A DNA stretch of 42,005 nt from Boothiomyces macroporosus (lineage: Eukaryota; Chytridiomycota; Chytridiomycetes; Rhizophydiales; Terramycetaceae): the NCBI GenBank assembly GCA_027604185.1, contig JADGKB010000114.1, forward strand, positions 1-42,005. Direction: 5' to 3'. The notes beneath the pieces are model-generated. The model was not told the origin of the DNA. It did not search any database and saw only the letters and a program-made list of their open reading frames with translations. The position numbers and the translations under genes were made by a program. Positions 1,415-42,004 of the stretch are shown here, piece by piece (position 1 is the first letter of the stretch; the number at the start of each line of letters is the position of its first letter).

Positions 1415-3358
1415 ATGAGCACAAAGCTGATGAAATCAAATCCCCTCGCTATGAGGCTGGAAGCAGTAAAAAACCTTACAGTGGATAATGATACTCTCGA
1501 AGCCTTAAAAATCACCCCCACTACAAAACCAAGACAGACAGTTGAACATTTGCTAATCCAACAACACGAAATATTCCTCAATTCATTCGAAAAAGTAACT
1601 TCAATTAATGAAAGGTGTTCGTGGAGATGAATGAAATGGAAAAATCAATCAAAGAAATGGACGCTGATTTGTCATTCATTAAATCGACTTTGGAACAAGC
1701 CAAGGAAAAAACCACCAAAGTTGTAGATATCACCAACGAATTAAAGGAGGCTTCGAGCGACACTCTCCTTAAGCAGTCCATAATCAAAGAATTTTTGGAG
1801 ATCTTTACCATAACTAAACGAACAGAGATCAATCAGGAATTTTTTGAGAACCTGAAACGATTGCAACAAATCAATGTTCATTCACAAGCATTACTGATTG
1901 GAAATCAAAACATTGGAATGGAGATACTGACTAATCTCAATACAGTGCAGGAGGAACAATATGAAATGCTATTTAAATGGACACAATTACAATGCCGAAC
2001 ATTAAAGCAAGAACAGCCAGAAATATCAAGCGAATTTACTGAAGCGATGAGAGCATTCAGATTCAGACCAATTTTATTTGATGCATGTATAGATGAAATA
2101 TCGTCAATTAGACAAAGCGCTTTAGTAAGGGCTTTTCAAAATGCACTGTCTGTTGGAACTCAGTATTCAAAGCCGATTGAATATTATGCGCATGATCCTA
2201 CTAGATATGTGGGTGATATTCTTGCCTGGATTCATCAAGCGTGTATTGCCGAATACGAAATGCTTTCCTCAGTCTTTGGTATTGTAGGAAACAGCCAGAG
2301 ACAAGCAGTTGAACTTCCGCAAGTTTTCGAACAAGTCGAAGGATATCAAACCTCACGAGAGCAGGTTTTGTCAGTTTTAGACAAAAATACAGAAGGTTTG
2401 GCACCAATGTTGAATGTAACTGCAATTAATCTTAGAAACGTATTGACGCTATGATAACAGTGTTGCTAGGAAGTATTCAAATATACAAGATTCAAAATAC
2501 AATTCAATTTTACCATCAAACGTTATCCAAAATTCTAGATCCAAAGTCGACTCTTCTTACTTCACTTGAAAGGTAATCTTGACTAATGCAGATCAAGTAA
2601 TAACGCGCTGGTAGTATTCAAGAATAGTTTGGAAACTCAAAAAGGAGATTTAACAAGAACGACAATTGAGCCTTCTGAAAGCTTAGATCCACCACCAACT
2701 GTAAAAGAAACAATGTCGCAAATTAAAGAAATATTTACCAGTCTCGAAATGAATATGGTTTCATCAAACGAAAGTATTCTAGCTGATGTCAAAGAGCAAT
2801 TGCTATATCCTTTAATTACAAACTGTGAATCACCAAATGATTTAACACCATTAGATCAAGCAATTTTCAAAGTCAATATATACCACTACATCAACAATGT
2901 ACTTACTTTATTTGGATTCTGCGAAGAGTTGATCAATGAAATCAATACAAAAACCAGCCATCAAGTGACTCTTCTAGTGCATGAACAAGTAAAATACACT
3001 AATATAGCTGAATACAATGTTGGATAAAAGTGGGCTGTTGGAGCTAATTGTCAAAATGAAAAGCTCTGAAAAGCCATATTCGTTGGTTCCTGAACTTTCG
3101 ACTTCTGTGATAAGTACAAAGTTGGCGAAATTAGACAATTATTTGGTAAATGTGACAATGGACGTCAGCGAGACTCTTTACAGAATCAAATCGCTGGATA
3201 TCGCAAAGGAATGCGTCAAAAAAGGATGCATCCAATTTGTAAAAGAGTATTCGTGGCTAGTAAGCGAAATACTAGATCCAGCAAACAAGTACGAATTCCC
3301 AAACAGTTTAATAAGAAGAAACGTCAAGGAAGTAGAGACTTTATTGTCGTTAGATTAA
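1415..3358 (+). CDS. COG6: Conserved oligomeric Golgi complex subunit 6
   Basis: Exons 1415-1594, 1615-2415, 2436-2572, 2592-2988 and 3008-3358 give 621 residues, close to animal COG6. COG6 is a lobe B subunit of the COG tether that captures retrograde vesicles at the Golgi. Family signatures are clear: an N-terminal NPLAMRLEAV block, a coiled coil around residues 60-110, the CRTLKQE and HDPTRYVGDILAWIHQA blocks, and a C-terminal LVSEILDPANKYEFP block. The four introns are 20, 20, 19 and 19 nt (for example GTAAAATACACTAATATAG at 2989-3007) and each restores a conserved stretch. I chose the ATG at 1415 because it opens the conserved block; no ATG lies further upstream in frame. The stop codon overlaps the stop of the gene on the other strand by two bases. 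Confidence 0.95.
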
Positions 3359-3751
3359 TCAATTTCAATAAACTCTTGAATTTTCTTTATCCTCTGAGTG
3401 GCAAGTTTCAATGTCCTGGTTATCAATATAGCATCGCTTTTTCTCAAAGGATTCTTTGCCTTTAGTTTTTCCTTTAGTTTCTTGTTTTCAATCCTAATCT
3501 CATCTACTGGAGCGTTTCCTATACCCTTATCCACCAGCATCTTCAACTCTACATGCTGATTTAAGTTGCAAGTACCTCTTGAACCAATTCCTTCATTCCT
3601 TCCGGTGTTAGTTTGTCCAAGTTTTGCTGTAGGTAGTATATACGCATCTTTAATCCAAAATTTTCCTTTTTCAGTTCATTAATCAACTGTTGTTAGTTTT
3701 GTGTACTCTTTCCCTTTGATTTTCGCATAAATCAGATTCGTTATCGTTCAT
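3355..3751 (-). CDS. Tiny CM1 (centrosomin motif 1) protein
   Basis: Exons (5' to 3' of the gene) 3707-3751, 3576-3686 and 3355-3555 encode 118 residues. Residues 16-52 match the CM1 motif of Cnn, CDK5RAP2, Mto1 and Pcp1: LINELKKENFGLKMRIYYLQ followed by LDKLTPEGMKELVQE. CM1 binds and activates gamma-tubulin ring complexes, so this protein should recruit or activate microtubule nucleation at a centrosome or basal body. The conserved Phe of the ENF core is present. The tail is Lys-rich helix. Both introns are 20 nt (GTACACAAAACTAACAACAG and GTACTTGCAACTTAAATCAG). Known CM1 proteins are usually long coiled-coil scaffolds; this one cannot be much longer, because the next gene stops 87 nt upstream and COG6 overlaps its stop. 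Confidence 0.85.
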
Positions 3752-3838
3752 TGATGTTGTCTGAGCGTGATCTTGTAAACAAAAAAAGAGTGGGGTTTTA
3801 AAATGATATTTCAATCAGAATAACAATTACACAGTTTA

Positions 3839-4332
3839 TTATGCCCAAGATTCTTCGACTGTTTCCTTGACTCTTTTGTTGTACTCTTTGCGACTGTCTG
3901 AAAACATTCTTGCAGCTTCCGCATTGGCTGGCGAGTTTGGATTCGGATCATGCAACAGCGATTGGATAGAAGTCAAAATGGCTGCAACATCGTATGTTGG
4001 CGACCACCTATTCTGTAGGATATCCAGACATAAATCTCCATTAGCATATACATTAGGACTGGGTTAGCAGGATATTACTGAAACATTCTTGAGATAAATT
4101 TCACATGAGGTGGTTTAGTTGGATATTCTTCATCAAATGTAAGAACCAATTTAAATGTCTATTGTAAGGTACAACTTACGCCATCTTCAAATGGTGTATC
4201 CACTGGCCCAAATATAACCGCATTCCATATAAGAACATTATCCGGACATGGTGCTCCACTTATTCCCTCTGGCGCATCCGTTTGTAACCGCTTAAAGTCT
4301 CTCATAAGTCTTCTTTTTGCTGTTGTTGACAT
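3839..4332 (-). CDS. RAD6: Ubiquitin-conjugating enzyme E2, RAD6/UBC2 type (copy A)
   Basis: Exons 4180-4332, 4079-4158 and 3839-4058 give 150 residues, the usual RAD6 length. It begins [20 protein letters not shown] and keeps the family order, including the [15 protein letters not shown] block with the catalytic cysteine at residue 88, exactly as in yeast Rad6. RAD6 monoubiquitinates PCNA and histone H2B with RAD18- or BRE1-type ligases and acts with UBR ligases. Introns are 21 and 20 nt. The AATAAA signal (3835-3840 on this strand) overlaps the stop. A second, tandem copy lies just upstream. Their last exons and last introns are nearly identical while the first exons differ, pointing to gene conversion. 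Confidence 0.96.
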
Positions 4333-4443: not shown

Positions 4444-4933
4444 TTACCAAGATTCTTCGACTGTTTCCTTGACTCTTTTGTTGTACTCTTTGCGGCTGTC
4501 TGAAAACATTCTTGCAGCTTCCGCATTGGCTGGCGAGTTTGGATTCGGATCATGCAACAGCGATTGGATAGAAGTCAAGATGGCTGCAACATCGTATGTT
4601 GGTGACCATCTATTCTGTAGGATATCCAGACATAAATCTCCATTAGCATATACATTAGGACTGGGTTAGCAGGATATTACTGAAACATTCTTGAGATAAA
4701 TTTCACTTTAGGCGGTTTGGAAGGATATTCCTCATCAAATGTAAGAATAAGTTTAAACATCTATTTCAGATACTTGTTACCCCGCTTTCGAATGGTGTAT
4801 CAACCGGCCCAAAAATAACCGCATTCCATACTAAGAGGTTATCCGAACTTGGTGCTCCTGTTATTCCTTCTGGTGCATCCGTAAGTAACCGCCTGTAGTC
4901 TCTAATTAATCTTTTCTTTGCTGTGGATGACAT
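4444..4933 (-). CDS. RAD6: Ubiquitin-conjugating enzyme E2, RAD6/UBC2 type (copy B)
   Basis: Exons 4781-4933, 4681-4760 and 4444-4660 give 149 residues beginning [16 protein letters not shown]. The active-site Cys88 and its surrounding block are identical to copy A. The intron positions match copy A; intron 1 differs in sequence (20 versus 21 nt), whereas intron 2 (GTAATATCCTGCTAACCCAG) is identical in both. Exon 1 differs at many codons ([14 protein letters not shown] versus [14 protein letters not shown]) and exon 2 at a few (MFKLIL versus TFKLVL), so both copies look functional and partly diverged. The 36-bp inverted repeat of the possible mobile element starts 38 nt upstream of this ATG, so its promoter region may have been changed by an insertion. 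Confidence 0.95.
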
Positions 4934-4970
4934 TTTATGAGTCAAAAGAAATACTTGCAAGACAGCATAA

Positions 4971-5824: not shown

Positions 5825-8800
5825 TTATTGGTTTTTGCCTTCATATTTTTCTTTAGCAACTTGCCTTAGGGTAGCGGCATTGGTAGGACCAGTGGCATCG
5901 GCAAGTTGAGAAAAGAGAGTATTTGGATTTGAGAGCAAGATATGAGGGGAGTCATACTCTTTCTTTACTCCATTCTCCAATACCAAAACCCGATCAAAAT
6001 CTGCGATTGTATTTAATCTGTGCGCAATAGATAAAACTGTAGTATCCTTGAAATGCGTTTTGATGGACAGTTGAATCAGCTTGTCAGCTTCCGCATCGAC
6101 TGACGCAGTTGCCTCGTCCATAATGAGAATTCTTGGTTTGAGCAAGATGGCTCTGCCCAAACAAATCAATTGACGCTGTCCGACTGATAGATTTTCTCCG
6201 TTTTCAGCGACAGCACTGTCCAGCTTGTCTGAAAGAGAAGATACATACTCCTTCAATCCAATCATTTCCAGCACTTTCCAAATGTCGTCATCTTGGTACA
6301 GCGATTCGACATCCAAGTTGTCTCGGATAGTTCCAGTGAACAGCACAGGCTCCTGCGGAATGATTTGGATGCTCTTTCTCAGCGCTTCTAGTCCAATGGT
6401 CGAGATGTCCACACCATCAATAGAAATCGTCCCTTCAGACAGCTCCACAATCCTAAACAGCGCCGTCATCAAACTGGACTTTCCTGACCCAGTTCTTCCG
6501 ATTATACCAATGTTTTCACCAGGCTTGACCTCAAACGAGATGTTCCTGAGCACTGGTAGATCTGGACGAGACGGATACGCCATGGTGATATTATTGACTG
6601 AAATCGCACCCACTGTTGGCCAATTGGCAGCATCAGGATCGTGGTCAGTCTTGAAAGCAGCTTCTTTTGGCAATTTGTCACAGTAGTAGGAAAGTCTTTC
6701 CACTGAGTTGAATTCATTTTCCAGTTGAGACGAGGACATCAAAAGCAAACTAAGTAGCGATGTATAGCCAATTGCATACGTTAACGCAAGACCAATCAGT
6801 GAAGGGTCAATTGAACCAGAGCTTCCCAATAAACAAAGTAGCAATGTTATAGTGCAAGTAAGTGCTTCCAAACGTAGACCAACCCATGTTGCAGCAAAAA
6901 GTCGAAGATATGTGGGCATGTTGCTAGTATTCATTAATTTCCTTTCACGCGTGACAAACTGCTTTTCAACACCAAATGCTTTCACAGTCGCTAACCCAGC
7001 TAGTGTTTCACTAACATGAGCATAAAGCGGAGATCTGTTTGTAGATTCGAATCGTTTAAATTCCCTATTTGATCTTTGATAGTAAACAATTATCAAGAAA
7101 AAGATCACCATTAGTGGACCAATTAATGCTGAAATTAGGTTATAGACTTACCAAGCAGTTTAACTTCGACGTATACCATAAAAATGGCATTGGCAACCAA
7201 TCCAGCCGTAGAAATGGTACACAAGAACAAAATAATCCAGATTTGCTGATCCACACTTTCAATATCTTTTGACATTCTGTTGAGAATACGACCAATCGGT
7301 TGGGAATCAAAGTAGCCCATTGGTGCTGTAAGTAGACTTCCAAGTGCCTTCTTGTGATAGAATTTAGATGCTTTAAACCCACCAGTCAAGAAGGTAGTGG
7401 TAAGCAACAACGCACATAAAAACTGACCAAGACCTAACAGGCCATAGACTCTCATATAAGTAGCTTTGCTAAAATCGTACTTTGGAGGGTAACTAGTCCA
7501 CCACGATAGCCAAAGATTATTAAACACTTGAACCCCTGCATTGATAGAAGCGCAAATGAAAATGCCCAAAAGATAAGGATACCCTCCACATTGACTAATG
7601 TAATGCCAATAAACTTGGAAAGAAACTGAGCCGATTTCTTGATCTTCTTGTACAATGATTCCACCTTTTTCACCAGTGTTATCATTTTTGTCTTCCAAAG
7701 TCTCTTTTTTTGTTGCAAGTTCACTATCTTGTTCATCTACCGAATAGTGTTTCATCATTTCATACATATTTCCTTTTGCTTCCATCAACTCTTTAAAAGT
7801 GCCCTGTTCGACAATTGTGCCTTTATCAAGAGTGATAATATAGTCCAATTCAGGCAAGAAATGAAGCTGATGAGTGACTAAAATAACGGTCTTGTCCTTC
7901 AAGTATCCTTTAATTGCATCAGTGAATACCTTTCTGCCGACCTGAGCATCCAAAGCCGAGATGGGATCATCGAGGATTACAATGTCGCTATTTTGATACA
8001 TTGCTCTAGCCATTGAAACTCTTGCCTTTTGTCCACCAGACAAATTAACTCCTTTTTCTCCGATTTCAGTTTTTACGCCTGCTGGTAACTGCTGCATATC
8101 CACATCCAATCCGGTAGCTTCCAACACAGTTTTCAGTCTCTCTTGATCCAAGTTATTGTTGAAAACAATATTTCCTTGAACTGTGTCTGTAAGAATCCAT
8201 GGCTGTTGAGAGCAGTATGCCAATCTACCGCCAATATTGAGTGTCCCAGATACTTTTGGCATTTCGCCGATTATTGCAGATAATAAAGAGGATTTGCCAG
8301 ATCCCACAGGACCAATTATTCCAATTTTTGCACCTTTTTTGACTGAAATATCAATATTTTCCAGTGCAAAGGCATCAGAGGTTTCAACGGGCTCTTTCAG
8401 CTCAACTAAATCTTTTTCAGGGTTTACTTCAACAATTACAGGTTTCTTGGCTTCTTTTTGCTCCTGGTTCACTTTTTCCCATTTGAAGCATCCATCTTTG
8501 ATTTCCAAGTGGTTATCCTTCAATTCTTTGATTGTATGTTGAATGTTTTCCAATTCATCAGCTTCTTCTGCACCCAAAAATTCAACAATACGGTTGTAAG
8601 ACACATAGGCAACGACAACGGCAGTTATGGACTGTGGGATGACAAGAATCAACTGAAACAGATTGCTAAACAAAGTGAGAGAAGGAAAGATGCGGTCAGG
8701 AGAAATATCCCCGTATACCGCAGAGTACACCAAGAATGCACCAATTGGCTATAATTAAGTAATGTTACCATAGAAATCGGAGCAATCTGAATCATACCAA

Positions 8801-9769
8801 CAAAATAGACTTGGAGAAAATAATACTTTTTCAAAACAGCAACTTGTTCATCACGAATTTTAGAAATACGATCCATAAAGAACTTTTCCAAAGCCCTAAA
8901 CTTGATAATCTTGATTCCATAGAGCATTTCTCGGAGTGCTTTTAAACGGCGATCACCAATTGACAGAAACCCTTTTTGGTATGTAACCAAAAACCCAATT
9001 GCAGCAATTTGAAGTATCAAGATTGCAAATAAGCAACCTGCACCTCCCCACACAGCATAGTATAGCTTTTGGCCAAGTAAGATAACTGAAACAACTACAT
9101 TTACGGGTGAAACAATGAATGCAGCCATTTGTACAAAAGAAGCACTTATCTTTTCCACATCAACATTAATCAAGTTCAAAATCTGCCCTTGAGTGTATTT
9201 TCTAGAACTTGCTTGAGATAATCTCAATGATTTTTCATAAACAGCACCAATAAGGATGGTTTTCACGTCCACTTGAAGAGAATTGAACAGCTGGATCGAA
9301 GTCTTTTCAAAAACAGTTCTTCCTAGCTGTAGACCAGCGAGAATAAACGACAGCGCTATGCCAGAGTCAAAGTAGAGTAATGATCTTGGATACAGTGGTG
9401 TCAGATACAACAGAATTTGTTTCATAAATGTAGGAATAGTTAATACGCATGCCACTGATAATCCCTGCAATAGCAAACCAAAAAAGAATCGAATGTAATA
9501 TTGCTTGACAAAAATACTTGAAATGGTGTTTTTGATTTTGGCGTTTGGATCACCCTTTAATTTTTTGAAATCGTGCCAGTACGGATCCAGCAATCCAGCC
9601 AGGTAAGTCGCTTGATTAGAGTCTGGCAAGTCATACAAATCCTGATTGAGTGTTTGATTACCTCTTGCTGGAGTGGTTTCCTAGCACCAGAGAACATGAG
9701 CGGAGTAATCCACTCTATCGTTAGGAAATTGAGTGGGTTAATTTTCACTTGCTTTCGCTTGAAATCCAT
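5825..9769 (-). CDS. ABC transporter, ABCC (MRP) subfamily
   Basis: Exons 9662-9769, 8769-9641, 7152-8748 and 5825-7128 (introns 20, 20 and 23 nt) give 1293 residues: a full transporter TMD1-NBD1-TMD2-NBD2 without the extra TMD0. NBD1 has Walker A GPVGSGKSSLL near residue 473, signature LSGGQKAR and Walker B VILDDPISALD. NBD2 has Walker A GRTGSGKSSLM near 1070, signature LSVGQRQ near 1173 and Walker B ILIMDEATASVD. NBD1 has Asp-Pro in place of the catalytic Glu (DDP rather than DEA), the degenerate site typical of ABCC proteins; NBD2 keeps the Glu. ABCC pumps export glutathione conjugates and organic anions or sequester them in the vacuole; the substrate cannot be told. AATAAA overlaps the stop codon. 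Confidence 0.95.
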
Positions 9770-10052: not shown

Positions 10053-11078
10053 CTATATTTTAAATTTACGCATAATCAACCGCTTCAAAGCTCCAAACCC
10101 AACAATCAAACACCCAGAAACAAACAGCAAAACAGAGTAAAATGCAGTTGGATTGGATTCAAACCCGCTCACTAAATTCATTCCAAATATCGATGCAATG
10201 AATGCTCCAAATGAAAATACAACCGCGCAAGAAGTAACCTGGAGTTCAAATAGCAGAATGTCATTTCGTCGGATGCTCTTTTCCAAATTTACGATTTCTT
10301 CAGTTGAACTAATGCGTTTTAAAAGCGCTTGATATCTAATAAGCAATTCTTGTAGTCTGTAATAGTAATTTTCAAACAAGAGTTCCACTTCTTGATGGTC
10401 TTCAATATCTCGACTCTGGTTTACGTGCTTTTCAGAAATGTACATTTGAATCATATCTTCATCATTGTCCAGCACTCTTTGCAGTGCTAATAATACCGCT
10501 TCTACTTTATGTTTGGATTCATTCAGTCTATTCTTCATTTGTAAAACAAGTTTCAAATCAGTAATGGTAAATTTACCGATTGAGCTAATGCATTTATTAG
10601 CCAAAGGTAATTCCTTTGAATACTCTTGTTCCAAATCTATGCATACCTGGGCAATGATATATTCAAGAACGTGCAGTTCAAGGGGTAATTCTACATTATA
10701 ACAGTGTACCATCTAAATGAAAAGTTTCCAAGAAATACTGTAGTTTTTTGGAGAAATCCTCAATTTCCTCGGTCTGAACCAGCAAGACTGAATTAACGGA
10801 ATAATACCTTCGTCGTGTTTAATGATACCTCGGTATTGTCCCATATTCACTAATATCGCCAGTTTACGGGGCAAGATTGTCGGTAATGCGTTATCCAGTG
10901 ATCGCACGTCTCGCAGTTTCAATCCAATGTGAGCCAAGTCTTTTTTGTAGAGCCTTTGAGTTTGAAGAGTGAAATCACTGTATTTCAATCTCGCAAATTC
11001 AAAATGGTCTTTTGGTATTGTTGCGATTCCTCTTTTTAGTGTATTTAATTGGCTGAATATTCGAAGCGGTCTTGCCAT
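10053..11078 (-). CDS. MRS2: Mrs2/CorA-family magnesium channel
   Basis: Exons 10808-11078, 10710-10787 and 10053-10690 (introns GTATTATTCCGTTAATTCAG and GTACACTGTTATAATGTAG) give 328 residues. The protein has the Mrs2 order: a mixed N-terminal domain with RDVRSLDNALPTILPR and AILVNMGQYRGIIKHDE, the LPLELHVLEYIIA block near residue 118, a long helical stalk, and two C-terminal membrane helices with the diagnostic GMN motif at residues 286-288. The N-terminus is rich in Arg and Lys and lacks acidic residues, as expected for mitochondrial import. It should form a pentameric Mg2+ channel of the inner mitochondrial membrane. The stretch LLVQTEEIEDF is coded by a 78-nt exon and appears only once both introns are removed. 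Confidence 0.93.
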
Positions 11079-12337: not shown

Positions 12338-13386
12338 TTAAAAACAAAAGCAGAAACCAAATGATTTTTCCGGTGCTGCAACTGTTGAATCTTGCGCTTT
12401 AGGCTCAGATTGTACTTTTATCTCTGTAATTGGTCCTGCAATTGGTCCTGTAATTGGTCCTGTAATTGGTTCTGGGGCCATCTTTGGTGCAGGTTCCGGT
12501 TGGGACACCATAGTGTTCAAACTAGAATTAGAAGGCTTGTCCTGCACCTTGGCCAACTCTTGTTCAGCTACAACATCTACTGAGACTGCATCTTGCTGTT
12601 CAACTGCTGGAGCATCTTGAAGAAAATCTAATTTGAGCGACAGCCTCTTTGACATGCTTTCCTCTAAATCGTGGTCTTGAAGTTTTTCCATAATTTCTGG
12701 CAGCATCAAAGACCGCAAAGACAGCACAGACATTCTCTTGTCATTCTTGCTGTTATTAGTGTTGAGTGAAGCTATAGATTGAATAGATTGTCTTTTTGAT
12801 TTACCAAAAGTGGATTCCAAGACTTCAATTTCATCTGGCTGTGGAATGAAACCAGTCTGGGCGGCTTTCATTAACCAAAAATCTGCAGCTACTTCATTTG
12901 GCGGCTTCATGTTTTTGAATTTGATTGCCAGCTTGACTTGAGCAGAAGGCTCTCCACTGATTGCATCCTGCAAGATTAGCAAATCATTGAACGAGCTGTC
13001 ATTTGGTAACTGATATCTTTGATCAGGCATGGCATTTGTATACCCAATATATAGGTTCTTTGCATGCTTTTCAACACTAGCTAACGATGGATAATGTTCT
13101 GGCCAGCTATTGATTGAAAAGTGTCCAAAGTACGAATAGCAATTTCTTGCCCCTTTGATCCCTCCATTATCTAAATACAACAGTGCTTGAAACAACACTA
13201 GAGCGTATAACACTCTTTCGTCATTATGTAACAGCAGCTTTTTTGTTTTTTGTTTTTGCAGGTGGAGAGCACCCAGTATTTGCTCTTTGGAAATGACAGC
13301 TGGGTCCTGAATTAGAAAATAGAAACCTGGTTGATTAATATTTCAGATATGCGATTCAGATTCCCAATGCTTTCTGGTGGAAACAT
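12338..13386 (-). CDS. Lineage-specific tandem paralogue 2
   Basis: Exons 13327-13386 and 12338-13306 give 342 residues. The intron GTTTCTATTTTCTAATTCAG follows codon 20 and was found by aligning with the neighbouring paralogue: NLNRISEILINQ then DPAVISKEQ here, against NLNLICDILVNQ then ESQIISKYQ there. Residues 30-190 are the conserved helical part. The C-terminal half is disordered, with a short repeat of ITGP units (residues about 305-320), and ends FGFCFCF. I do not recognise the family. The end could shift if an additional short intron is used near the stop. It is divergent from RP2 over 246 nt. Confidence 0.72.
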
Positions 13387-13632: not shown

Positions 13633-14597
13633 ATGGAGTGTCTAAATTGTCTGTTCGCAAAGTCAGAAGAAGAAAAGCAAGTGGACAAACCAACTGTTGA
13701 AAAAGAGCCTGAACCTATTCTGCCTACCCTTCCTAAAAAGAAATTGACAGCCAAGGATGTGACAATAGCTAATATAACCAACGGGATTATAATTAAAAAA
13801 GGTGTATTTACAGACCCAGTCCCATTTCAAATACAAGATTGCTCATCAGTCAAAATATTTCTACAGGATTGTTACCAACAAGTCACGGTTGATGCAGTAA
13901 CTGACAGTTTGATATTTATTGGTCCTTGTGAAGGTTCAGTATTCATCCGCGATTGCAAGAATTGTACTTTTATCTGTGCTGGTCAGCAACTAAGACTTCG
14001 AGGCTGTGAAAATTTATACATGAATATTTATTGTAACGGTCAGCCAATTATCGAAACCAGCAAAGATATTTACTTTTCATGCTTTCAGTTCTATTACCCA
14101 GAGCTACAAAGTACAACTTGTTAATAATAGGCTTGTTTGATAAAGTCAGGCTAAACGTTTACAAGAATGACTGGATTGGAGTGTACGATTTTAACGATGC
14201 GGGTGCGAATAATTGGACGGTTGCTGTATTTACGTGTTTATGTAGGTGCCAAAAATTGATTTCTTGCCTTCCGATTGCTCAATTGAAAAGAGCGTTGTCC
14301 CTCAAACTACAAACCAGTATGAGCAAAATGCACAACTGAATTTCACTTTTGAAAACGTGCAAGGTATAATTGAGAAGCTAAAGGTACGTGTAATCTAACA
14401 AGCCAACAATATCCACCACTGTGACTAAACCACAAGTGTATCCTGTCAGACAAGATATACAAAAAAGACTAGAGAGAAGCGAGTGCGTGATTGTGGTTTC
14501 TAATCAAAATGAACTAGCAGAAAATGAAAATCTACTCATAATAAGAGACTCTGCAGAGAATGTCAAGGATCTATTTTCTATATTCAGAAAAATATAA
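13633..14597 (+). CDS. RP2: RP2-like TBCC-domain protein (ARL3 GTPase-activating protein)
   Basis: Exons 13633-14110, 14131-14225, 14246-14383 and 14403-14597 (introns 20, 20 and 19 nt) give 301 residues. The TBCC/CARP beta-helix is clear, with VFIRDCKNCTFICAGQQLRL, QPIIETSKDIYFSCFQFYYP and NDWIGVYDFNDAGANNW matching human XRP2. RP2 is the GTPase-activating protein for ARL3, which releases lipidated cargo at the ciliary base. The arginine of the GQQLRLR block, which holds the arginine finger in the family, is present. The start MECLNCLF lacks the Gly2 needed for myristoylation but keeps two cysteines that could be palmitoylated. A longer start at 13483 is open but adds nothing conserved. Presence of RP2 implies a cilium or flagellum. 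Confidence 0.93.
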
Positions 14598-30440: not shown

Positions 30441-32870
30441 TTATTCTTGTGTTTTGTGAATAAACGATAGTAGGCGTTTTTTGTGAATGATGCCTACAAA
30501 CACACCGTCCCTAATTACAAGTAGCGTTCTGATTCCCAGTTTTACAAACATTTCAATTACTAATTCACATGAAGCAGATGCGGAAACAGTGAGTGGTGCC
30601 TAGGTTAGTGTTTCTTACCTTATCTACCCATTGCGACAAATCACAAATTGGATTTGCGGATTGGATGAGAGGCGTTTGGGCAGGTGAGTTTGAATTATGG
30701 AAAGCCAAATTGTGGAATACAATGCACTGATTGTAATCCATGTTTACATCAACTAAACCAAGAGCGTGGGATAGATCTGTTTGTGAAATGTACCCCGTTA
30801 GTACATATCCGGATTTAACTACAGGGAAACCACCGTCAAATGAAGGATGAATCATATCTTGTTAGAAATACCATACCCAAATGTGATAATTTCCCTTGTA
30901 TATCACTCACACGATAAATAGAGTCGGTATCTAATGTATCAACATTAGTTTCCATCAGATCCTGCGCCAGAGTAAGTCGCGTGAAATTGTTGCGTTTGTG
31001 GTTTAGGTAAGGGTATCCTTTTTCATGAATTAGGTGATCATAAATTGAGTCTCTACCAAAAGCATCAGCTACCCACTTTGCAGCCATAATTGAGGTCATT
31101 AACGGAAGCACATAAGTGAGAGCGCCTGTAAGCTCAAACATAATAACAGCCAAGGAAACGGTCATTCTGGTTACTCCAGAGAGAGCACCAGCAGCTCCTA
31201 CAAGTGCATAAACACCAGGTATAATAGTTATAGATGTTTTTCCAAATAAAGGCGAATCCAAAGAACTATGTTAATTCAAGTTACTTTAGTAGTAATTGGA
31301 ACAGCGTTCCTACAATTCTTCCAATTGAAGCTCCGACTGCCATTGAAGGTATGAAAATACCGCCAGGCACTCGAATGCCAAAAGTGATAATCATCAGAGA
31401 CGATTTGATTAGTAGAGAATACAAAAGTTCAATCAATAAATCACTGTAATTGTTGTATCTGCACAAGCTTGACTTTGATCCAGGCACACAATCGCTGAAA
31501 AGTTCCGTTACAAAGTTGATATTGCCCTGCCGTGTAAGCTCGAATGGAAAACTAACCAAACTGGTTACAAGTGCAATAATAATCAGTTGCAATAGAGGGG
31601 TAAATTTAGGTATTTTTTGCTTTAAGCGGGCTATTAATGTCGTAGCATGAATGAATAACGCGCCAAACAACCCACCTAGAATACCAAGCAAAAAGAATGG
31701 AACCAATTCTATTGCATTCCAGTCTGCATTATATGTGACTTGAAACATTACCAGTTTGCCCGTTCCTAGAGGGTTAATCATTTTCAAAGTAACAGCAGCA
31801 ATCAACGCACAAAAGAATGCTCTCCACATTGTTTTTGGAGGAAAGTAGTATGAAGTTTCCTCTAGTGAAAACAATACACCGCCAATGGGAGCACCGAAAG
31901 CAACAGAGACACCAGCAGCGCAAGCAGCAGACATGATCTCTCTTCTCTTTGCATCATTAGTCTTGTACTTTTCAAATATCCTTGTAGTTACATTTCCAAT
32001 TGAGCAAGCAATATGAACCAGCGGTCCTTGAACACCCATTGCTAATCCAGCCGCAATTACGAATATCAATGAAAATATTTTGAATATCAATGTTCGAAGT
32101 CCAAGAAATCCTCTAATTACAAAACCTCCAAGAATAGTTTTAACTTCTGGTATCCCAGATCCAGCAGCATGGTACATGTAGTAATAATTTGATGATGGGT
32201 TTTCCAAGTGTAAATATCCATGATTGTATATCGTATTTAATTGTATTTGATGGTATGGACCTCCGGAAGCTATACCGAACGCTATTAGAGCAAACAGCAG
32301 TCCGCTAAAAGTATATATCAAAAGTGGGATATCCGCCGATATATCAGACCACGAAACCCAGCTACACACTTTTCCAGTACAGCATAAATCCTTGGAAGAG
32401 AATATATTTGATCCACAGTATCCGTGACGAAAAGTTTCCAATAGTGCGCTGGTGAAATCCAATAAAGATGCAGTGAACCCAGATACAATCCCTACATTAG
32501 CAAAATATACCAACTATGGTGAGAACCAACCATGCTTGAGCGGCATCGAATAGTTTCTGGGGCTTGTTTTTCCATCCTGACAGTGACTTTAGCTTTCTCT
32601 GTCTGATGCGGTCTTTAATTGTATCGTGTATCCAATCAATAGTCGTATAATCATCGTATTTCCACCGAAGTCCATGTTCCTCTACTTTGTTTATGACTTG
32701 ATTATCTGGCCAGTTGTTGACGTTAATGACTGATAGTGTTGGGGAATTGATGGCAAAGTTGGGCGAGTCTGGCGACCAAGTTCGTCGATGTTCGTCAGAT
32801 CTATCTTAGTTTGTTTTTACATTCTCAAGCGGGAAGCCTTTTTTCTAATGAGCGGCTCTTGTTCTTCCAT
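30441..32870 (-). CDS. CLC-family chloride channel/transporter with Gln at the gating position
   Basis: Exons 32821-32870, 32511-32800, 31285-32491, 30877-31265, 30619-30857 and 30441-30599 (introns 20, 19, 19, 19 and 19 nt) give 777 residues. It resembles the ClC-3/4/5/Gef1 group: acidic N-terminus, CLC core with [18 protein letters not shown] near residue 224, the [16 protein letters not shown] block near 322, and two C-terminal CBS domains. The selectivity-filter helix reads MGVQGPLVH, so the gating glutamate of the usual GxEGP motif is Gln (about residue 268), while the internal proton-glutamate block SLEE is kept. In other CLCs this change removes proton coupling or fast gating, so a channel-like chloride leak is predicted. 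Location is likely endosomal or vacuolar. Confidence 0.94.
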
Positions 32871-33027: not shown

Positions 33028-33596
33028 TTACATGAGTCCGATTCTGGAAGCAACTTCGGTAGCTTCAACATCAGCTGGCAAACGAACGAAAGCCTTCTTC
33101 TTTCCATCTGGGCGGATGAGGGTGTTGACGTTAGCAACATCGACATCATAAAGACGCTTCAAAGCATCCTTGATTTGGCGCTTGTTGGAGCGGACATCAC
33201 AGATGAAGACAAGAGTGTTGTCGTATTCAATCTTCTTCATGGCAGATTCAGTTGCAAGAGGGAACTTGATGACAGAGTATTGGTCAAGGGATGGGGTCTT
33301 GGCAACAGCCTTTCTTGCGTACTTTGGAGCACGGGCAAGTTTAAGGGTCTTTGGCAAGTGGAAAGTAGCAGAGGTCTTGGTCTTGATTTGCTTCTTTGCA
33401 GTTCCCTTGAGGGCAGCCTTCTTTGCGGATGCAGCTTGCTTGACAGCTTCGGTTTCTAAAAGGTTAGATTTGCTCTAGTGTTGGGTCTTTTTAAAAGACG
33501 TCAAGTGCATTCGAGAATGCCTTTCGTTCCACTAAAACAAACAGCTTCACGCTGTAACCCAATGTGTGATTACTTACTTTTTGCTACTGGTGCCAT
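33028..33596 (-). CDS. RPL23A: Large ribosomal subunit protein uL23
   Basis: Exons 33578-33596 and 33028-33455 give 148 residues (yeast Rpl25, animal RPL23A). The protein sits at the polypeptide exit tunnel and is a docking point for SRP and chaperones. The core [39 protein letters not shown] and [16 protein letters not shown] is strongly conserved; the N-terminal extension is Lys/Ala-rich, as in eukaryotes. The first coding exon is only 19 nt (MAPVAK plus one base) and is followed by a 122-nt intron, six times longer than any other intron placed here. CTAAC and TTTTAG mark its 3' end. AATAAA lies a few bases after the stop. Confidence 0.96.
33456..33577 (-). other. 122-nt intron of uL23, with two hairpins
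   Basis: On the gene strand it starts GTAAGTAATCAC and ends with CTAACCTTTTAG. It contains GCATTC-TC-GAATGC and GTCTTT-TAA-AAAGAC hairpins. No C/D box snoRNA motifs (RUGAUGA, CUGA) are seen. Its length and structure contrast with every other intron here, so it may carry regulatory information or an unrecognised RNA. Confidence 0.8.
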
Positions 33597-35226: not shown

Positions 35227-36116
35227 CTATTCTTCATCATCATGACGCTTTGGAGGAGATTCGGCACGTTTGGCAGGAGATCTTGAGCGATCACGGTCGT
35301 CTTCTCTGTCCCTATCTCTGCGATCATCCCTGTCTCTGTCACGACGATCGTCTCGGTCATCTCTGTCGCGACGGTCGTCTCTATCGTCTCTTTCACGGCG
35401 GTCATCCTAACATTAAATTAATCAAACATTTCTGTCACGATCATTACGGTCGTTGCGATCACCAGAACGATCCTTGTCGCCCTAACATTAAAGCTTGCAT
35501 ACTTCTTTGATTGAAAGGATAGAACCATTGTAATCGTAGCCTTCAAAGTGTTTGAGAGCCTTTTCCTTTCCTTCAATGGAAATGAATTCAACTACACCAT
35601 CTCCGTTTTGGTCAACGTTAGTGTATTGAACTTCAGCAACTTTGCGCATCAAATCTTTCAGGTCCTTGAATCAGAATATACTTACTTGCCATGAGGTTCC
35701 TCTTGGGAGACCTAAAACTGTAACACTACAATTAATCGCTTTTGTACCGATGATCTGGCTTGCGGATGTTACGTGGACGGTCTCTGTCATCTCTTCTGTC
35801 GTCTCTTCGTCTGTCATCCCTTCTGTCGTCTCTGCGATCACCTTTGCTACTCTTTGCAAATTCACAAATTATTCTGGATTAAACATCCTCATACCTTTCT
35901 CCCATGAATCTTGTTCCATCCAAATCCTTTACACAGTCTGATGCATCTCTGCCATCATCAAATTCAACAAAAGCAAAGCCTTGAAGACATCGCACGTCCC
36001 GAATTCTTCCGAATTCCTTGGCCAACTTTTCGATATCCCGTTCTCTACAATCTCTAGGTAATTTGCCTGGGAATTAGCTCTACTGTACCAAAGTAAACTC
36101 TTCTGTTTTCTCCCAT
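35227..36116 (-). CDS. SR-family splicing factor (two RRMs, RD/RS tail)
   Basis: Seven exons: 36089-36116, 35895-36066, 35748-35873, 35686-35725, 35503-35664, 35428-35481 and 35227-35406, with six introns of 21-22 nt, give 253 residues. RRM1 starts RVYFGKLPRDC and has RNP1-like GFAFVEFDD. A linker of Arg-Asp repeats follows. The pseudo-RRM2 contains VTVLGLPRGTSWQDLKDL, close to the SWQDLKD signature of SRSF1. The C-terminal tail is RD/RE dipeptides with a short SRSPAK RS element. SRSF1-type proteins define exons and help export mRNA. This gene has the most introns per length in the window, and its introns are slightly longer than most. Introns 5 and 6 share the ending TTTAATGTTAG. Confidence 0.94.
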
Positions 36117-36523: not shown

Positions 36524-37445
36524 ATGGATGTTTCTGACCAGCTCGCAAAATTGGAAGAGAAATAGTAATTCAATAGTAACATAGCGCTTCTGTAAAAGTT
36601 GATAAAAATATTCCACTGGAAGTTGATTTGCAGTGTCTGACTGCGTTTGATCCAAACCCACTAGAGTAACAATAATTTAACAAAAGAAAGGACTTGGAAG
36701 CAGATGCCAGAGATGGGATTCAGATATTAATCAATGCAATTTTTGAATGTCCGACTGTGTCCAACGAAGATGGTGTATTTGCTACACTCCCACGTTCTGT
36801 AAAGAATCAAGTCCCAAGAGCAAAACCAATTCCTAAACAAAAAGCAATGACCAGATGGGAGAAATTCGCTGCTGCCAAAGGAATCAAAAAAGTTAAAAAA
36901 AAGAGAGTTGAGTTTGATGAAAATACTGGTGAATATCGCCCAACATTTGGATACAAAAACCAAGGAAAGAGTGGCAAAGATTTATCAGACTGGATCAAGG
37001 AGGTTCCGGATGATGCAGGTAATTCATTAGTGACAGTAGATCCAAATGCTGATTTATATCAAGTAGAAAGGGAAGAAAAGAAGAATCGCGTGGCAAAGAA
37101 CCAAATGCAGCAAAGAAGAAATCAAGAAGAAGCATACGCTCAGCAAAAGGGGATGGATCACAAGGCATTCAAGAAGCAAATGCTCTACAAGCAGATTGTG
37201 GACGCAAACGTGTCTACCGCCTCCATGGGCAAATTTGATCCAAAATTAAAGAACGACAATGTCAAAGTGAAAGGGGTAAAGCGAAAGGTACTCTATTACT
37301 AAGTTAGTTTGAATCCAACACTGCTCCTGTTGAGGTTGAAAAGAAAAAGAACTTGGAGATTGCAGAAAAGATTGGTAAACCGAAAAAGGAAGAAATCAAT
37401 GTCAGACAGGCTGTCAATATTCATTCTAGCAAGCGAAGAAAGTAA
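36524..37445 (+). CDS. RRS1: Ribosome biogenesis regulator RRS1
   Basis: Exons 36524-36564, 36585-36665, 36687-37287 and 37308-37445 (introns 20, 21 and 20 nt) give 286 residues. RRS1 with RPF2 delivers the 5S RNP to pre-60S particles in the nucleolus. Family blocks are the N-terminal PLEVDLQCLTAFDPNPLE, ARDGIQILINAIFECP, LPRSVKNQVPRAKPIPKQKA, MTRWEKFAAAKGIKK and VSTASMGKFDPKL. The N-terminal block appears only after removal of GTAATTCAATAGTAACATAG. Poly(A)-type TTAATAAAAT follows the stop by four bases. The ATG at 36524 follows a long pyrimidine/T tract. Confidence 0.95.
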
Positions 37446-37778: not shown

Positions 37779-39414
37779 ATGTCCTGGCAAGATATTAAAA
37801 ATCCAGAAGAGTTCCACTCCATCACCAAAGAAAAGTTTTCCCTATGTTTGTTTTATTGTTTTGCCTACAAGTAGACTCTAATCTAACATAGTTCCGACGT
37901 CAAATCAATGCCCCAGAGATTGGTTTCACAGGGAGTTACCTGTATACAGGTAGATACAAATAGAATGAAAGACGTTGCGGCCAAATTTCGGATCACTGGC
38001 TACCCATCCTTTCAATTTTTTGTGAAAGGACGTGTCTTTGGGGGTCTGTTGGCAGATCCGCTCAAAGTGCCAGAGGTGCTCAAAGAATGTATTTTAGCTC
38101 AGAGCAAGTACCGTGAAGCCAAATCAGTCTCGGAATTTTTGTCGTTTATCGCTTTTGATGGCTTGTCCGTTTGTCTGATTTACAGCACCAGACATCCAAA
38201 TCATATGAATACTGTATACAATATGAATTGCTACTCCAAAGACTATCCGAGCGTCCAGTTCTGTGGGATTGATGAAGCCCTGGGAATAGAAGTAAGAGAT
38301 TCTCATAATTTAGGAGCTGACGTCGAAATTTCAGATCCTATCATACCCTGCGTATATACTATGCTACAAAAGCCAGACACCGTTCGCATTGCCTACCAAC
38401 GAGCTTCAATTGCTGGAGAAACTGAGTATATTTGAAAAATCTGGTATTGAAGGACTGGTACCACCAGAAATACGTACCTCAAAGAAGGCACAATCCAATG
38501 AGAGCTGCGTTAGCCAACAGAAAACGGAAAAAATCAAACCCAGAGTCTCTCAGTCCCAAACTTCTATTGAAAAACAATCACCAAGAATATCCGAGCATCG
38601 CACTTCAGTTTCAACCAATCCGATCCAGAGAAAAGAGTCCATTGTCAAACGAAGAACTAGTCTAGGAGTAAACAAGCCCACTCCAATTGATACAAGTGAT
38701 GCTACAGTTTATTCCATGGGTGGCGGACGTAAGAGCGCTGGAAGTCATGGAATCCAATCCCCACTCACCTTAAAAAGTGATACATCATCTATTGAATCGT
38801 CTCCAAAAGTGAATGGCAAAAGAAGAAGCACACTGGAATCTGGCTCTGGATCTTTGCTCCCCTTGAAATCTGAAGTTCGACCAAAAGCAAAAGCTAACCC
38901 TGCCTCAATTTCACTGAAGGAAGTGATTGGATTTGAAATCCCAGAAGACTCTGTTTTTGAAAGTAAAAGAAGTTCAGTTTTTGTAACGCCTGCTGTTCAA
39001 GATAGTTCAAAAGCAGTCGACATTTTGGTTCAGAATGCGATTAAGCGGTCTGAAAAGTTGGTTTTAGCTGATGATGGGTACTCTATCGTAGAGCAAATTG
39101 ATGCAATTTCGGAATCAAATCTGATTGATGGCTTCAATGCAATTAGAGAAGAGCAAATCGAAGAAGCATTTTTCATTGAACCGCCATTGACTGATGAATA
39201 TGATGCTCTGCCTGTTAAAGGCTTTAGAGAATCAATTAACCTCAAGGAATTCTTGCCCGTGAAAGATACTAGGAGTAGATCCAATTCCAAAGTGGGAAGT
39301 ACGAGGAGTTGTCGTAATGAGGAATACCGTAGTGAATTGGAAAGACAACTCCAGGAAATGAATTGGGATACGGAAAATGTTGAACGCAATCAAAAAAATG
39401 GAATGAATATTTGA
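37779..39414 (+). CDS. Thioredoxin-fold protein without CxxC, with long disordered tail
   Basis: Exons 37779-37870, 37892-38381 and 38404-39414 (introns 21 and 22 nt) give 530 residues. Residues 1-110 form a thioredoxin-like domain: MSWQDIKNPEEFHSI, strand SLCLFYCFAYNSDVKSM, VTCIQVDTNRMKDVAAKFRI and the cis-Pro loop TGYPSFQFFVKG. At the active-site position the sequence is YNSD rather than CxxC, so no thiol chemistry is expected. A second alpha/beta part (residues about 110-190) may be another inactive fold. The last 330 residues are Ser/Lys-rich and disordered, with several acidic patches. A further 21-nt stretch at 38352-38372 also looks intron-like but is kept here because it preserves frame. 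Function unknown; binding or scaffold is a guess. Confidence 0.8.
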
Positions 39415-39438
39415 AATAAAAACTTCAAATTATTTATT
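39415..39438. terminator. Paired convergent poly(A) signals
   Basis: AATAAA on the plus strand (39415-39420) follows the thioredoxin-like gene stop directly, and AATAAA on the minus strand (39433-39438) follows the GPCR stop directly. Only 12 nt separate them, so the two 3' ends probably overlap. Confidence 0.7.
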
Positions 39439-42004
39439 CTATTTCAACATACTTTCACCCAACATTGAGTGTGAAGCGTATTTGTTTGCCCAACTCTGGA
39501 AATACTGATCCCATTGCTTGGCATCAGGCTCGTTCTCGAACATGATTTCAAAAATATCATAGTCCAGATGAAACTTTCTTGACGTGGTGGAAATCATCTC
39601 AATTTTGAAGAATTGGAGGTTTGACAACTTCCAGCAGTCACCGTCTCCCCTCTTTGTGGAATTTTTATCTTCAAGAGTAACTTTGGTAAAGCGGCAGAGT
39701 GAAATCAAGTCGTTAGACTCTAAAGTCAGAATTCTTGGGCTAGATTCGCCGAAAATACCGCTTTTCTTTAATATGACAGGCGTGCCACTCTTTGGTTTCT
39801 TCAAGTCTTTGGAGCTATTCGCAGTTTTCTCTTCCTTTGTGGTAGTTTGACTATGGGATTGAGAAGAAGACTGATTAGTTTTGGAAGTGAGTCCCCGTCC
39901 TTTTGCGCAACTGATAACCTTCAGCATAAATGTGCTGAGTAAATTAAAGTACAAGACATAGAATACTGCAAACATCTTTATCGCCGCTTTAAGCCTAAAT
40001 CCAAGTCCAGGAGAAAGCAAAATCGAGATTGCAAAGAGAGTCACCTAATATTATTTCAGTCGTACTATTACAGTGTTGTATATGGAAATAGTGATAAGCT
40101 TGGTTTCGCTGTATCTTGATGGAACATTTCTTGTTTGGAAAGCAATGTACAAGTTGAGAATTAAAATAAAAGCACAATATAAGGAGAGAGCCATCACCAT
40201 GTCGCTTTGGATATTGAGTGAAGTGGAAGAGCAAGTCCAGGCGTATACCCCTTTTACCACTTCTAAAGCGGCTGGTTTGGGAGAATCTATGGCATGCCAT
40301 ACAGCAATAATAATTGCAGCTGGTAATCCAAAAACTATACCAACGATAATTGTTTCGTGCGTTTTAAGGACCTTGTGAGTAGGTCGAGTAAAAATCATTA
40401 GCATTCTGTAGTTTTTGATAAACATCAATCCATAGTAAATAGAAAATGTAATTGGCAGAATCACTGAATCACTAGTGCAAGCTAATGTGGTAGGTTTGTT
40501 TAGCATAGTCAATAAGTCAAACCAACTAATCAAAATGCAGATCTGCATTACAAATCCAACAAATACGTCCGACGCTCTGACCATTGGATTATTTCTATAT
40601 ATTGCAATTCCGACGAGACTCGCCAAGCTGGTTACACCACCAATGAAAAACAATATTAAAGCAATTATTCCAAGTGCATCACCTGTAGTTCTCAGGTAAT
40701 CTGCTACAGTTGTTGGGTCGATTGCGTCCGCTGGCTTGTAACTGGCTCCTCCTGGATAGTAGTATGGCTGAATCTGGTATTCTGCGCCATTGGACCACTT
40801 TGATACTTGGACAAGGCTGGCGTCTGCCTGAACATTCATAATCGCGTAGTCCCCGCTTCTGTCGCCGTTTTGGTCCAGAGATATCCTTCCCGTCGTCGTG
40901 TCGTGATTTGGGAAGTTAAATGATTGAGGGACTTGCATCTGGCTGTTTAGCTCACCTGCATTAGAGCGGCTTACCATTAGCGAGCTTGGTGACATTGTTT
41001 CCGTTTGCTTTGACCAGAGCATCAAAGCCCAAAAGCGCTAGATCGACGCAGCTGCTGTGGAAATAGCCAAACGGGCCGCTGCTGTTGATCGAAGACACGT
41101 TTGCGCCAGGGTTTCCAACGCCGAGTCTGTTGGCTTTCCAGTAGGCGTCAAAGGCGTCTGACACTGGCCCGTCAGCCCGCTCCAGCGGGAACAGATACGA
41201 GGTGCCGGCATAGGCAGTAGTAGGGACCATTTGCTGCAGCCCGTCGGTTCCGATCCAAAAGTATCCAGCGCCGTAGCAGCCAGCCAGCGTGGCCTGCTGG
41301 ACGATCACCTCGTACTCTGCTGCAAACCCGAAATACACAATGATCCTCGCTTCGGCAGAAATAATTTGCTGTGCGATTTGATTGGCTGCATTTGCGTCCA
41401 CATTCGTTTCCACTAGCTGTCTCGAAAGCACGGTTATGTTATACTGCGACGCGTAATTCAGAAAAGAGGATATGGCTCCATTCCCATAGTCTTCGTCGGT
41501 ATTAATAGTGGCGATTTTGTGCCAGCCGTTGAAAGCAAGGTATTGGGCCATCGTGAGCGTAGCAGCGTTATCGTTGGGGATGGTTCGGAAAAAGTTTGGG
41601 TAGAGCGCTTTCTGTCCCAGAGTCGGATTAGTGGAAGAGCCGCAACACATTGGAATTTGGTAGTTTTGTAGAATCAACGAACTAATAATCGACATTGACG
41701 AGTATCCGGAACCAAAGATAAATATTTCTCCGTCAAGAGCCATATCGAGTGCCTGAGGAATCAACTGCGCCTTGCTTCCATGGTTATTTAGCAGAGTCGG
41801 TACAATTGTTGCGTTTGGGTGTATTAGCGAAGTGTTTTGGTTGAGCTGGCTGATTCTTACAAAGACACCTTCAATTTCATCAGCTAAATCGTTAGTTCCG
41901 TCAAGATAGAACATGAGAATTCCTACCTTGATTTGTATCGTTCCATTAGGAGTGAGACATTTACAAATCCCTAAGAGTAGGGCTATCTGATAGAGCAAAT
42001 TCAT
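39439..42004 (-). CDS. Class C (GABA-B/mGlu-like) GPCR with PH-like C-terminal domain
   Basis: Exons 40975-42004, 40066-40955 and 39439-40044 (introns GTAAGCCGCTCTAATGCAG and a 21-nt one) give 841 residues. The start ATG lies one base inside the window edge and opens a signal peptide (MNLLYQIALLLGICKCL). Residues about 20-430 form a Venus-flytrap domain resembling bacterial amide/branched-chain amino-acid binding proteins (VGILMFYLDGTNDL, NGWHKIATINTDEDYGNG). Seven membrane helices follow (about 465-720), with RMLMIFTRPTHKV in an inner loop as in class C receptors. The cytosolic tail has a Ser/Thr/Lys-rich linker, then a segment ending FEIMFENEPDAKQWDQYFQS that looks like the last strand and helix of a PH domain. 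It probably senses a small metabolite at the cell surface. Confidence 0.92.

Follow-up and report, generated by a model that had tools for sequence, protein, structure and literature searches.

In the chytrid Boothiomyces macroporosus, nearly all predicted introns within coding sequence are 19-23 nt long. We analyzed a 42,005-nt contig (JADGKB010000114.1, or C114; hereafter, the window) from a 15.2-Mb assembly of 216 contigs, within a 252-kb sample that also included five 40-kb stretches of other contigs and the PRP8 locus. We conclude that these segments are almost certainly U2-type spliceosomal introns, pared down to roughly the smallest size that is physically possible for an otherwise normal spliceosome. 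Reading frames, homology, borders, and motifs all point to splicing.

A class of 19-23 nt introns

To find introns, we wrote a two-strand Viterbi gene finder with a coding model of order 4. In the flat-prior run, lengths of 15-150 nt were weighted equally and the sole demand was GT…AG. Already in the first round, with the coding model trained on long uninterrupted frames alone, there was a single sharp peak at 19–22 nt, and the remaining introns were scattered. In a border control (lengths of 15–60 nt), GT-AG gave 39 segments of 19–22 nt, while the other 255 dinucleotide pairs gave 4.4 on average and 17 at most. This rules out random GT…AG gaps. The top decoys, TA-GA (17) and AT-AA (16), may be identical gaps viewed with shifted borders.

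In a second run, we refitted the motif model without a length filter and raised the maximum to 300 nt. Of 199 introns, 142 were 19–23 nt, none were shorter, and 57 were scattered from 25 to 299 nt. Neither the flat-prior run (15-150 nt) nor the motif-model run (up to 300 nt) showed a second length peak. These runs are the fair test of the length class. The final census leans on a length prior, and on a motif trained on short introns. It covers 124 genes, each with 240 or more coding nt, which together hold 194 kb of coding sequence with 1.29 introns per kb. Of the 256 coding introns that it predicts, 250 have lengths of 19–23 nt: 84 of 19 nt, 109 of 20 nt, 40 of 21 nt, 13 of 22 nt, and 4 of 23 nt. 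At 250 per 252 kb, the 15.2-Mb genome would contain about 15,000 tiny introns. Coding introns are confined to a few adjacent lengths, as in an ultrashort, near-uniform class, but longer introns do occur (in the genes for uL23, eL8, and eS12; see below).

Within the window, the finder called 46 introns of 19-23 nt, and 52 at a lower intron cost (18 of 19 nt, 19 of 20 nt, 10 of 21 nt, 4 of 22 nt, and 1 of 23 nt). Two of the six introns gained at lower cost have poor site scores. A preliminary description of this DNA had counted 55 introns, with a closely similar spread of lengths (19, 21, 10, 4, and 1, respectively). Only three of these could be compared individually, and all three are exactly where it had placed them. 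The flat-prior peak, the decoy borders, and the specificity of the motif confirm the class that it described. Its statement that all of the introns are GT-AG and 19-23 nt needs qualifying: GT-AG dominates and nearly all coding introns are in this range, but at least one intron in the window is longer (122 nt, in uL23), and elsewhere in the sample there is a small GC-AG class (6 of 264 introns).

Splice signals and branch position

We scored branch sites by their match to YTRAY, with no fitted model. This gave one best site in 209 of the 250 introns (24 with no site and 17 with ties were dropped). The branch A lies at +14 in 115 introns, +15 in 69, +16 in 13, +17 in 4, and elsewhere in 8; it is never at +12 or +13. 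The distance from the branch A to the final G is 5 nt in 117 introns, 6 nt in 76, 4 nt in 6, and another value in 10. These counts imply that 19-nt introns are mostly 14+5, that 20-nt introns are 14+6 or 15+5, and that 21-nt introns are mostly 15+6. YTAAY is present in 171 of 250 introns, versus 44 in shuffles. The motif had been described as ending 4-7 nt before the AG. Instead, it mostly ends 2-3 nt before the AG, with the branch A mostly at position 14-15.

The usual fungal donor is GTAAGT. Here the consensus is GTAANN, and G at +5 is scarce (44/250). When GC donors were permitted, six extra introns of 20–22 nt appeared among 264, four of them with GCAAGT. Each of five control donors added 0–1 introns of 20–22 nt and 0–1 outside that range. 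Five of the six GC-donor introns have G at +5, a much higher proportion than in GT-donor introns (p = 0.001), which suggests that the strength of 5' pairing still counts in splice-site use. We rejected a coupling between G at exon position -1 and G at +5 (p = 0.87).

As expected for U2-type introns, the borders are GT-AG (rarely GC-AG), and the branch motif near the 3' end can pair with GUAGUA of U2. U12-type introns have a ATATCCTT-like donor and a TTCCTTAAC-like branch; we rejected these because of the mismatch to GTAANN and the short YTAAY, with U12 RNA outside our search.

At a motif threshold that keeps 75% of the introns, there were 9 intron-like matches in 181 kb of exon (excluding genes under 300 nt or with any intron call over 23 nt). 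Synonymous shuffles gave 7.4 and the antisense strand gave 12. Because the observed number is close to the shuffle expectation, there is no depletion of decoys in exons.

Homology across the junctions

The six introns of PRP8 are 19–22 nt long, and at every one of these junctions the spliced protein aligns to solved PRP8 chains without gaps. Residues 1–149 of RAD6 align to residues 1–149 of a solved chain across two junctions. The spliced LYS9 (saccharopine reductase) is 100% identical over 449 residues to HK103_000772 of B. macroporosus; the next two matches, at 73–74%, belong to other chytrids, Globomyces and Kappamyces. Hence one 19-nt and one 20-nt intron of this gene are already spliced out in the deposited annotation. 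The alignment of LYS9 crosses the second junction, and the first junction is at its edge.

Pfam output gives match ranges, not gaps, so for other genes we compared the lengths of the match in the protein and in the profile. All four junctions of COG6 are within matches whose lengths differ by at most one position; the match to COG6_C (158-618 to profile 1-462) covers three of them. Matches with such small differences also cover one of two junctions in the TBCC-domain gene, one in the transmembrane region of a Cys-loop receptor, and one of three in RRS1. The matches for MRS2, the ligand-binding part of the receptor, RRM, and CLC cross junctions with larger length differences. PRP8, RAD6, and COG6 have short introns only. 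The shared motif and the homology rule out sequencing errors.

The introns of the window are listed below. "Finder" is the length-prior run, "flat list" is the flat-prior run, and "relaxed" means found at lower intron cost only. Those at 2989, 4059, and 15763 are the three that were quoted in the preliminary description.

1595..1614, plus: 20 nt, COG6; finder; inside COG6_N match 40-128 (profile 17-105)
2416..2435, plus: 20 nt, COG6; finder; inside COG6_C match
2573..2591, plus: 19 nt, COG6; finder, Pfam
2989..3007, plus: 19 nt, COG6; finder, Pfam
4059..4078, minus: 20 nt, RAD6-like E2 copy A; finder
4159..4179, minus: 21 nt, RAD6-like E2 copy A; finder
4661..4680, minus: 20 nt, RAD6-like E2 copy B; finder; gap-free to solved E2 chain
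4761..4780, minus: 20 nt, RAD6-like E2 copy B; finder; gap-free to solved E2 chain
7129..7151, minus: 23 nt, ABC transporter; finder
8749..8768, minus: 20 nt, ABC transporter; flat list, finder
9642..9661, minus: 20 nt, ABC transporter; flat list, finder
10691..10709, minus: 19 nt, MRS2-like; finder, Pfam
10788..10807, minus: 20 nt, MRS2-like; finder, Pfam
13307..13326, minus: 20 nt, gene without family scan; flat list, finder
14111..14130, plus: 20 nt, TBCC-domain gene; finder; inside TBCC match
14226..14245, plus: 20 nt, TBCC-domain gene; finder
14945..14963, plus: 19 nt, 5' of Cys-loop receptor model, lower support; relaxed
15373..15391, plus: 19 nt, Cys-loop receptor; finder; inside Neur_chan_LBD match
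15763..15781, plus: 19 nt, Cys-loop receptor; finder; inside Neur_chan_memb match
15883..15901, plus: 19 nt, Cys-loop receptor; finder
17331..17350, minus: 20 nt, LYS9; finder; identity to deposited protein; alignment
18468..18486, minus: 19 nt, LYS9; finder; identity to deposited protein
18990..19008, plus: 19 nt, PHD/UBR-like gene (name by eye), lower support; relaxed
19177..19195, plus: 19 nt, PHD/UBR-like gene (name by eye), low site score; relaxed
19555..19573, plus: 19 nt, PHD/UBR-like gene (name by eye), lower support; relaxed
21936..21956, minus: 21 nt, THOC2; finder
24111..24132, minus: 22 nt, THOC2; flat list, finder
26562..26581, minus: 20 nt, THOC2; flat list, finder
27406..27425, minus: 20 nt, THOC2; flat list, finder
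28463..28481, plus: 19 nt, class-3 lipase gene; finder
28919..28938, plus: 20 nt, class-3 lipase gene; finder
29034..29054, plus: 21 nt, class-3 lipase gene; finder
30152..30171, plus: 20 nt, class-3 lipase gene; finder
30344..30362, plus: 19 nt, class-3 lipase gene; finder
30600..30618, minus: 19 nt, CLC chloride channel; finder
30858..30876, minus: 19 nt, CLC; finder
31266..31284, minus: 19 nt, CLC; flat list, finder; inside Voltage_CLC match
32492..32510, minus: 19 nt, CLC; finder
32801..32820, minus: 20 nt, CLC; finder
33456..33577, minus: exception, 122 nt, ribosomal protein uL23; finder, Pfam, PDB match
35407..35427, minus: 21 nt, RRM gene; finder
35482..35502, minus: 21 nt, RRM gene; finder
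35665..35685, minus: 21 nt, RRM gene; finder; inside RRM_1 match
35726..35747, minus: 22 nt, RRM gene; finder
35874..35894, minus: 21 nt, RRM gene; finder
36067..36088, minus: 22 nt, low site score; relaxed
36565..36584, plus: 20 nt, RRS1; finder
36666..36686, plus: 21 nt, RRS1; finder; inside RRS1 match
37288..37307, plus: 20 nt, RRS1; flat list, finder
37871..37891, plus: 21 nt, thioredoxin-like gene (name by eye), lower support; relaxed
38292..38313, plus: 22 nt, thioredoxin-like gene (name by eye); finder, also at lower cost
40045..40065, minus: 21 nt, gene without family scan; flat list, finder
40956..40974, minus: 19 nt, gene without family scan; finder

The RAD6-like E2 gene is tandemly duplicated (3839-4933) and one intron is identical in both copies, so the introns of the window are not all independent. 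The window also encodes a pentameric Cys-loop receptor of the neurotransmitter-gated type, in a chytrid fungus (14945-16174). Elsewhere, the assembly has some duplicated stretches. Pairs of equal-scoring matches (C49:3194 and C100:4789; C10:128743 and C10:182399; C20:74242 and C20:119309) suggest haplotigs or segmental duplicates.

Splicing machinery

The genome encodes U1, U2, and U6, which are RNAs of the major spliceosome, as well as core proteins, as expected if the introns are U2-type. The 5' end of U1 is the canonical AUACUUACCUG (U1 scores 68.8 bits, versus a gathering score of 69.5), U6 carries the canonical ACAGAGA, and both of the two U2 genes carry the canonical GUAGUA. This rules out altered pairing sequences in these three RNAs. 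The genome also has PRP8, Slu7, Prp18, Cwc25, and Yju2, with nothing unusual seen in the first three or in the N-termini of the last two. U2AF65, whose RRMs, UHM, and tryptophan-bearing N-terminal motif were recognized by eye, scored under the family cut-off when searched exon by exon. It is retained even though the branch A and the AG mostly have just 3–4 nt between them. The finder's model of Cwc25 begins further upstream, but from the methionine of MGGG, Cwc25 matches the solved CWC25 from residue 1, with MGGGDLNLKKSWHP, and the glycine plug is intact. The N-terminus of Yju2 also aligns from residue 1. We found only one match to the Yju2/Saf4 family (G000:C109:23557-24204); many eukaryotes have two such genes.

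The preliminary description had expected changes to the spliceosome. We found none in the recognition sequences of U1, U2, and U6, the domains of U2AF65, Slu7, Prp18, or the N-termini of Cwc25 and Yju2. For Stentor, a spliceosome altered through changed small nuclear RNAs (snRNAs) or lost branching factors has been proposed; Stentor has a 10-nt loop and has lost the plug of Cwc25 (PMC9505925). The scarcity of G at +5 would fit such an explanation, and Isy1, SF1, U2AF35, U1C, U4, or U5, which were outside our search, could be changed. Nevertheless, given the canonical recognition sequences, a Cwc25 that is unlike Stentor's, the ordinary N-terminus of Yju2, and the presence of Slu7, Prp18, and the U2AF65 domains, we consider an altered spliceosome to be unlikely. 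The comparison suggests that a 14-nt loop may fit standard branching factors, while a 10-nt loop may not.

Longer introns in ribosomal-protein genes

We examined six ribosomal-protein genes (uL23 was named by Pfam and PDB matches and the other five by eye). Three of the six have a longer first intron: 122 nt in uL23, 241 nt in eL8, and 92 nt in eS12. The intron of uL23 has the donor GTAAGT, the branch CTAAC, and the acceptor TTTTAG, and its removal would join MAPVAKK to TEAVKQ. (At relaxed cost, the finder places this intron at 33475-33587, with a poor site score.) The intron of eL8 is directly 3' of the ATG, and that of eS12 ends within the ATG codon. All three introns start with GTAAGT and have a branch-like motif and a short pyrimidine run at their end. 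The introns of eL30 (22 and 21 nt) and eS4 (22 nt, placed by eye after the ATG, and 21 nt) are short, and we saw no intron in uL24.

Just past the stop codon of eS12, a stretch from GTAAGT to CTAATCCTAG (L044 (C122) 1849-1977) encloses a match to a C/D-type small nucleolar RNA (RF00046; 32.2 bits, below the gathering score of 60). It is possible that this stretch is a host intron in the 3' untranslated region. The match hints that some long introns may be retained for their RNA cargo. An Rfam search of the introns of uL23 and eL8 and the 5' intron of eS12 found no convincing RNA. The fold of the uL23 intron is branched, at -29.3 kcal/mol, and is just moderately better than that of shuffles (z = -1.8; 8 of 200 shuffles were as good). 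In 200 kb of the sample beyond the window, Rfam gave three weak matches. Weak SNORA73/snR30-like and Afu_309 matches adjoin the Cwc25 gene (L018 (C100) 5387-5593).

These longer introns raise another explanation: the length distribution might be that of an ordinary fungus, and the short class might be an artefact, produced by the method's preference for short gaps. Several observations weigh against a near-universal tiny class. Besides the three ribosomal-protein genes, there are the 57 longer calls from the run without a length filter. The 98% in the census is partly circular, because of its length prior and its motif training. Five GT-AG calls outside of 19-23 nt persist after GC donors are allowed. 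One of these is uL23 and another (133 nt) can be split by eye into introns of 19 nt and 21 nt, the latter GC-AG, which leaves calls of 41, 169, and 241 nt. For eL8 and eS12, where the finder gave 409 and 573 nt, we placed the borders by eye so that the protein regained its start. Also, our method is blind to introns in untranslated regions, including the 5' leaders; given this and the long introns in half of the ribosomal-protein genes, long introns may be commoner than the census indicates. Still, the absence of a second peak, and the presence of short introns only in PRP8, RAD6, and COG6, make an artefact very improbable. The near-uniformity that had been described is near-universal for introns within coding sequence, but it does not extend to the 5'-end introns of the three ribosomal-protein genes.

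The least credible explanation is that the segments are not introns, and that the frames are lost and regained through assembly errors, programmed frameshifts, or translational bypassing: the frames do break at these sites, and our case is built on DNA rather than transcripts, but the GT-AG ends far exceed the 255 decoy borders, YTAAY is at a nearly fixed position, the GC subclass has a compensating G at +5, and PRP8 and RAD6 are interrupted at gap-free positions.

Abutting introns and in-frame stops

In the length-prior predictions, 4 of 166 internal exons have zero length, and none are 1–8 nt. In these four tandem pairs, two complete introns appear to abut at AG/GT: C50 11108-11146 (19+20 nt), C100 7993-8033 (21+20 nt), C100 18325-18364 (19+21 nt), and C58 46358-46396 (19+20 nt). 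Without the length prior, one of the pairs was called as a single 39-nt intron. Of 40,000 simulated introns of 39–41 nt, 12 could be divided into two equally scoring introns. Two of the pairs are inside Pfam matches of near-equal protein and profile length (Endosulfine and Aa_trans), which supports the removal of the whole unit, not the order. Our reading is that the two members may be spliced sequentially around a zero-length exon. Direct excision of 39–41 nt would yield an identical messenger RNA. Recursive splicing at zero-length exons and fungal twin introns are known, and they share the AG directly followed by GT between two introns. In Boothiomyces, by contrast, both members look complete at 19-21 nt, and the double unit is only 39-41 nt.

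Among 21-nt introns, 39 of 40 contain an in-frame stop, while random phase predicts 27.0. There is no such excess in introns of 19, 20, or 22 nt. The gene finder itself favours a stop excess at 21 nt. However, exons conceal just 3 stopless 21-mers (versus 2 each for 19, 20, and 22 nt), which rules out a large hidden class of stopless 21-nt introns. So, despite the bias of the finder, we interpret the excess, with caution, as selection for the decay of retained transcripts. In Paramecium, introns with lengths divisible by three (3n) are reported to carry in-frame stops above expectation (PMC5014332).

A model for minimal introns

We propose that each tiny intron consists of three signals end to end: GTAANN (about 6 nt), 2-3 spacer bases and the YTAAY branch, and then YAG. 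The first six bases would be paired by U1 and then by the ACAGAGA box of U6, while GUAGUA of U2 would pair with the five bases that lie 5' of the bulged A. With the branch A at +14 or +15, branching would form a loop of about 14 nt, and the first AG would then be used, with the G of YAG 4-6 nt further on. The length would be the sum of two nearly fixed rulers, 14-17 and 4-6, giving 19-23 nt. The sharp lower edge of the branch positions and their falling upper tail resemble a steric floor at +14, which would be made up of six bases for U1 and U6, two or three spacers, and the five bases of the U2 branch helix. A deletion bias may have driven intron lengths down to this floor. The escapees would be 5'-end introns of certain ribosomal-protein genes, and perhaps also introns with a small RNA inside; those that we saw keep a perfect GTAAGT.

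More tentatively, the canonical spliceosome might itself act as a length ruler, with a floor for the branch A at +14 and, in coding sequence, a soft ceiling near +17. Coding sequence would then admit a longer intron only in the form of two complete tiny introns side by side around a zero-length exon, spliced successively. Longer introns would survive only with a perfect GTAAGT, mostly in ribosomal-protein genes, and would carry, or once have carried, RNA cargo. We view this proposal as possible but doubtful.

Comparison with other tiny introns

Among the matches listed in our literature searches, there was no report of a tiny-intron class in Boothiomyces, in another chytrid, or in any fungus. 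The class is known from nucleomorphs, heterotrich ciliates, and mikrocytids, and a near-universal coding class in a fungus is apparently unreported among those matches. The preliminary description had proposed such a class for a fungus-like nuclear genome, which our results support, the organism being a chytrid.

Boothiomyces macroporosus belongs to the Terramycetaceae (Rhizophydiales, Chytridiomycota) and is free-living. The minimal intron length has so far been debated from nucleomorphs, giant ciliates, and reduced parasites, for which a changed spliceosome or relaxed selection can be invoked. Boothiomyces nears the limit in a fungus that is related to well-studied species, with canonical recognition sequences in its snRNAs and canonical-looking branching factors. 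It is a natural test of the lower limit to intron size, and it helps to separate what the geometry of the spliceosome permits from what requires new parts. There is also a practical implication. Because many gene predictors and RNA aligners disallow introns shorter than 20–30 nt, the gene models of related chytrids may have been damaged.

In the nucleomorphs of chlorarachniophytes, introns are 18-21 nt, with over 800 introns in about 300 genes (PMC10245619). The length range, the narrow distribution, and the intron-rich gene set are shared. But a nucleomorph is a relic nucleus, while Boothiomyces has a 15.2-Mb nuclear genome, whose coding sequence averages about 1.3 introns per kb in our sample. 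The introns of Mikrocytos mackini are 16-17 nt (n = 224), and they also have very narrow lengths and conserved motifs (PMC10245619). M. mackini is described as an intracellular parasite with a reduced spliceosome, whereas all of the factors that we tested are present in Boothiomyces, with its thousands of extrapolated introns.

The introns of Paramecium, at about 25 bp, are longer, and besides the stops in 3n introns, they are reported to show a deficit of 3n lengths, which is not evident in Boothiomyces (PMC5014332). The introns of Stentor coeruleus are 15-16 nt (PMC9505925). As described there, they resemble those of Boothiomyces in their near-uniform length, a commonest start of GUAAUU without G at +5, a 5-nt tail after the branch A, and canonical recognition sequences in U1, U2, and U6. 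The two differ in the position of the branch A (10-11 in Stentor, mostly 14-15 in Boothiomyces), in the branch consensus (no strong one is described for Stentor; YTAAY in Boothiomyces), and in the branching factors: the glycine plug of Cwc25 and the N-terminus of Isy1 are altered in Stentor, while the plug of Cwc25 is intact in Boothiomyces (PMC9505925).

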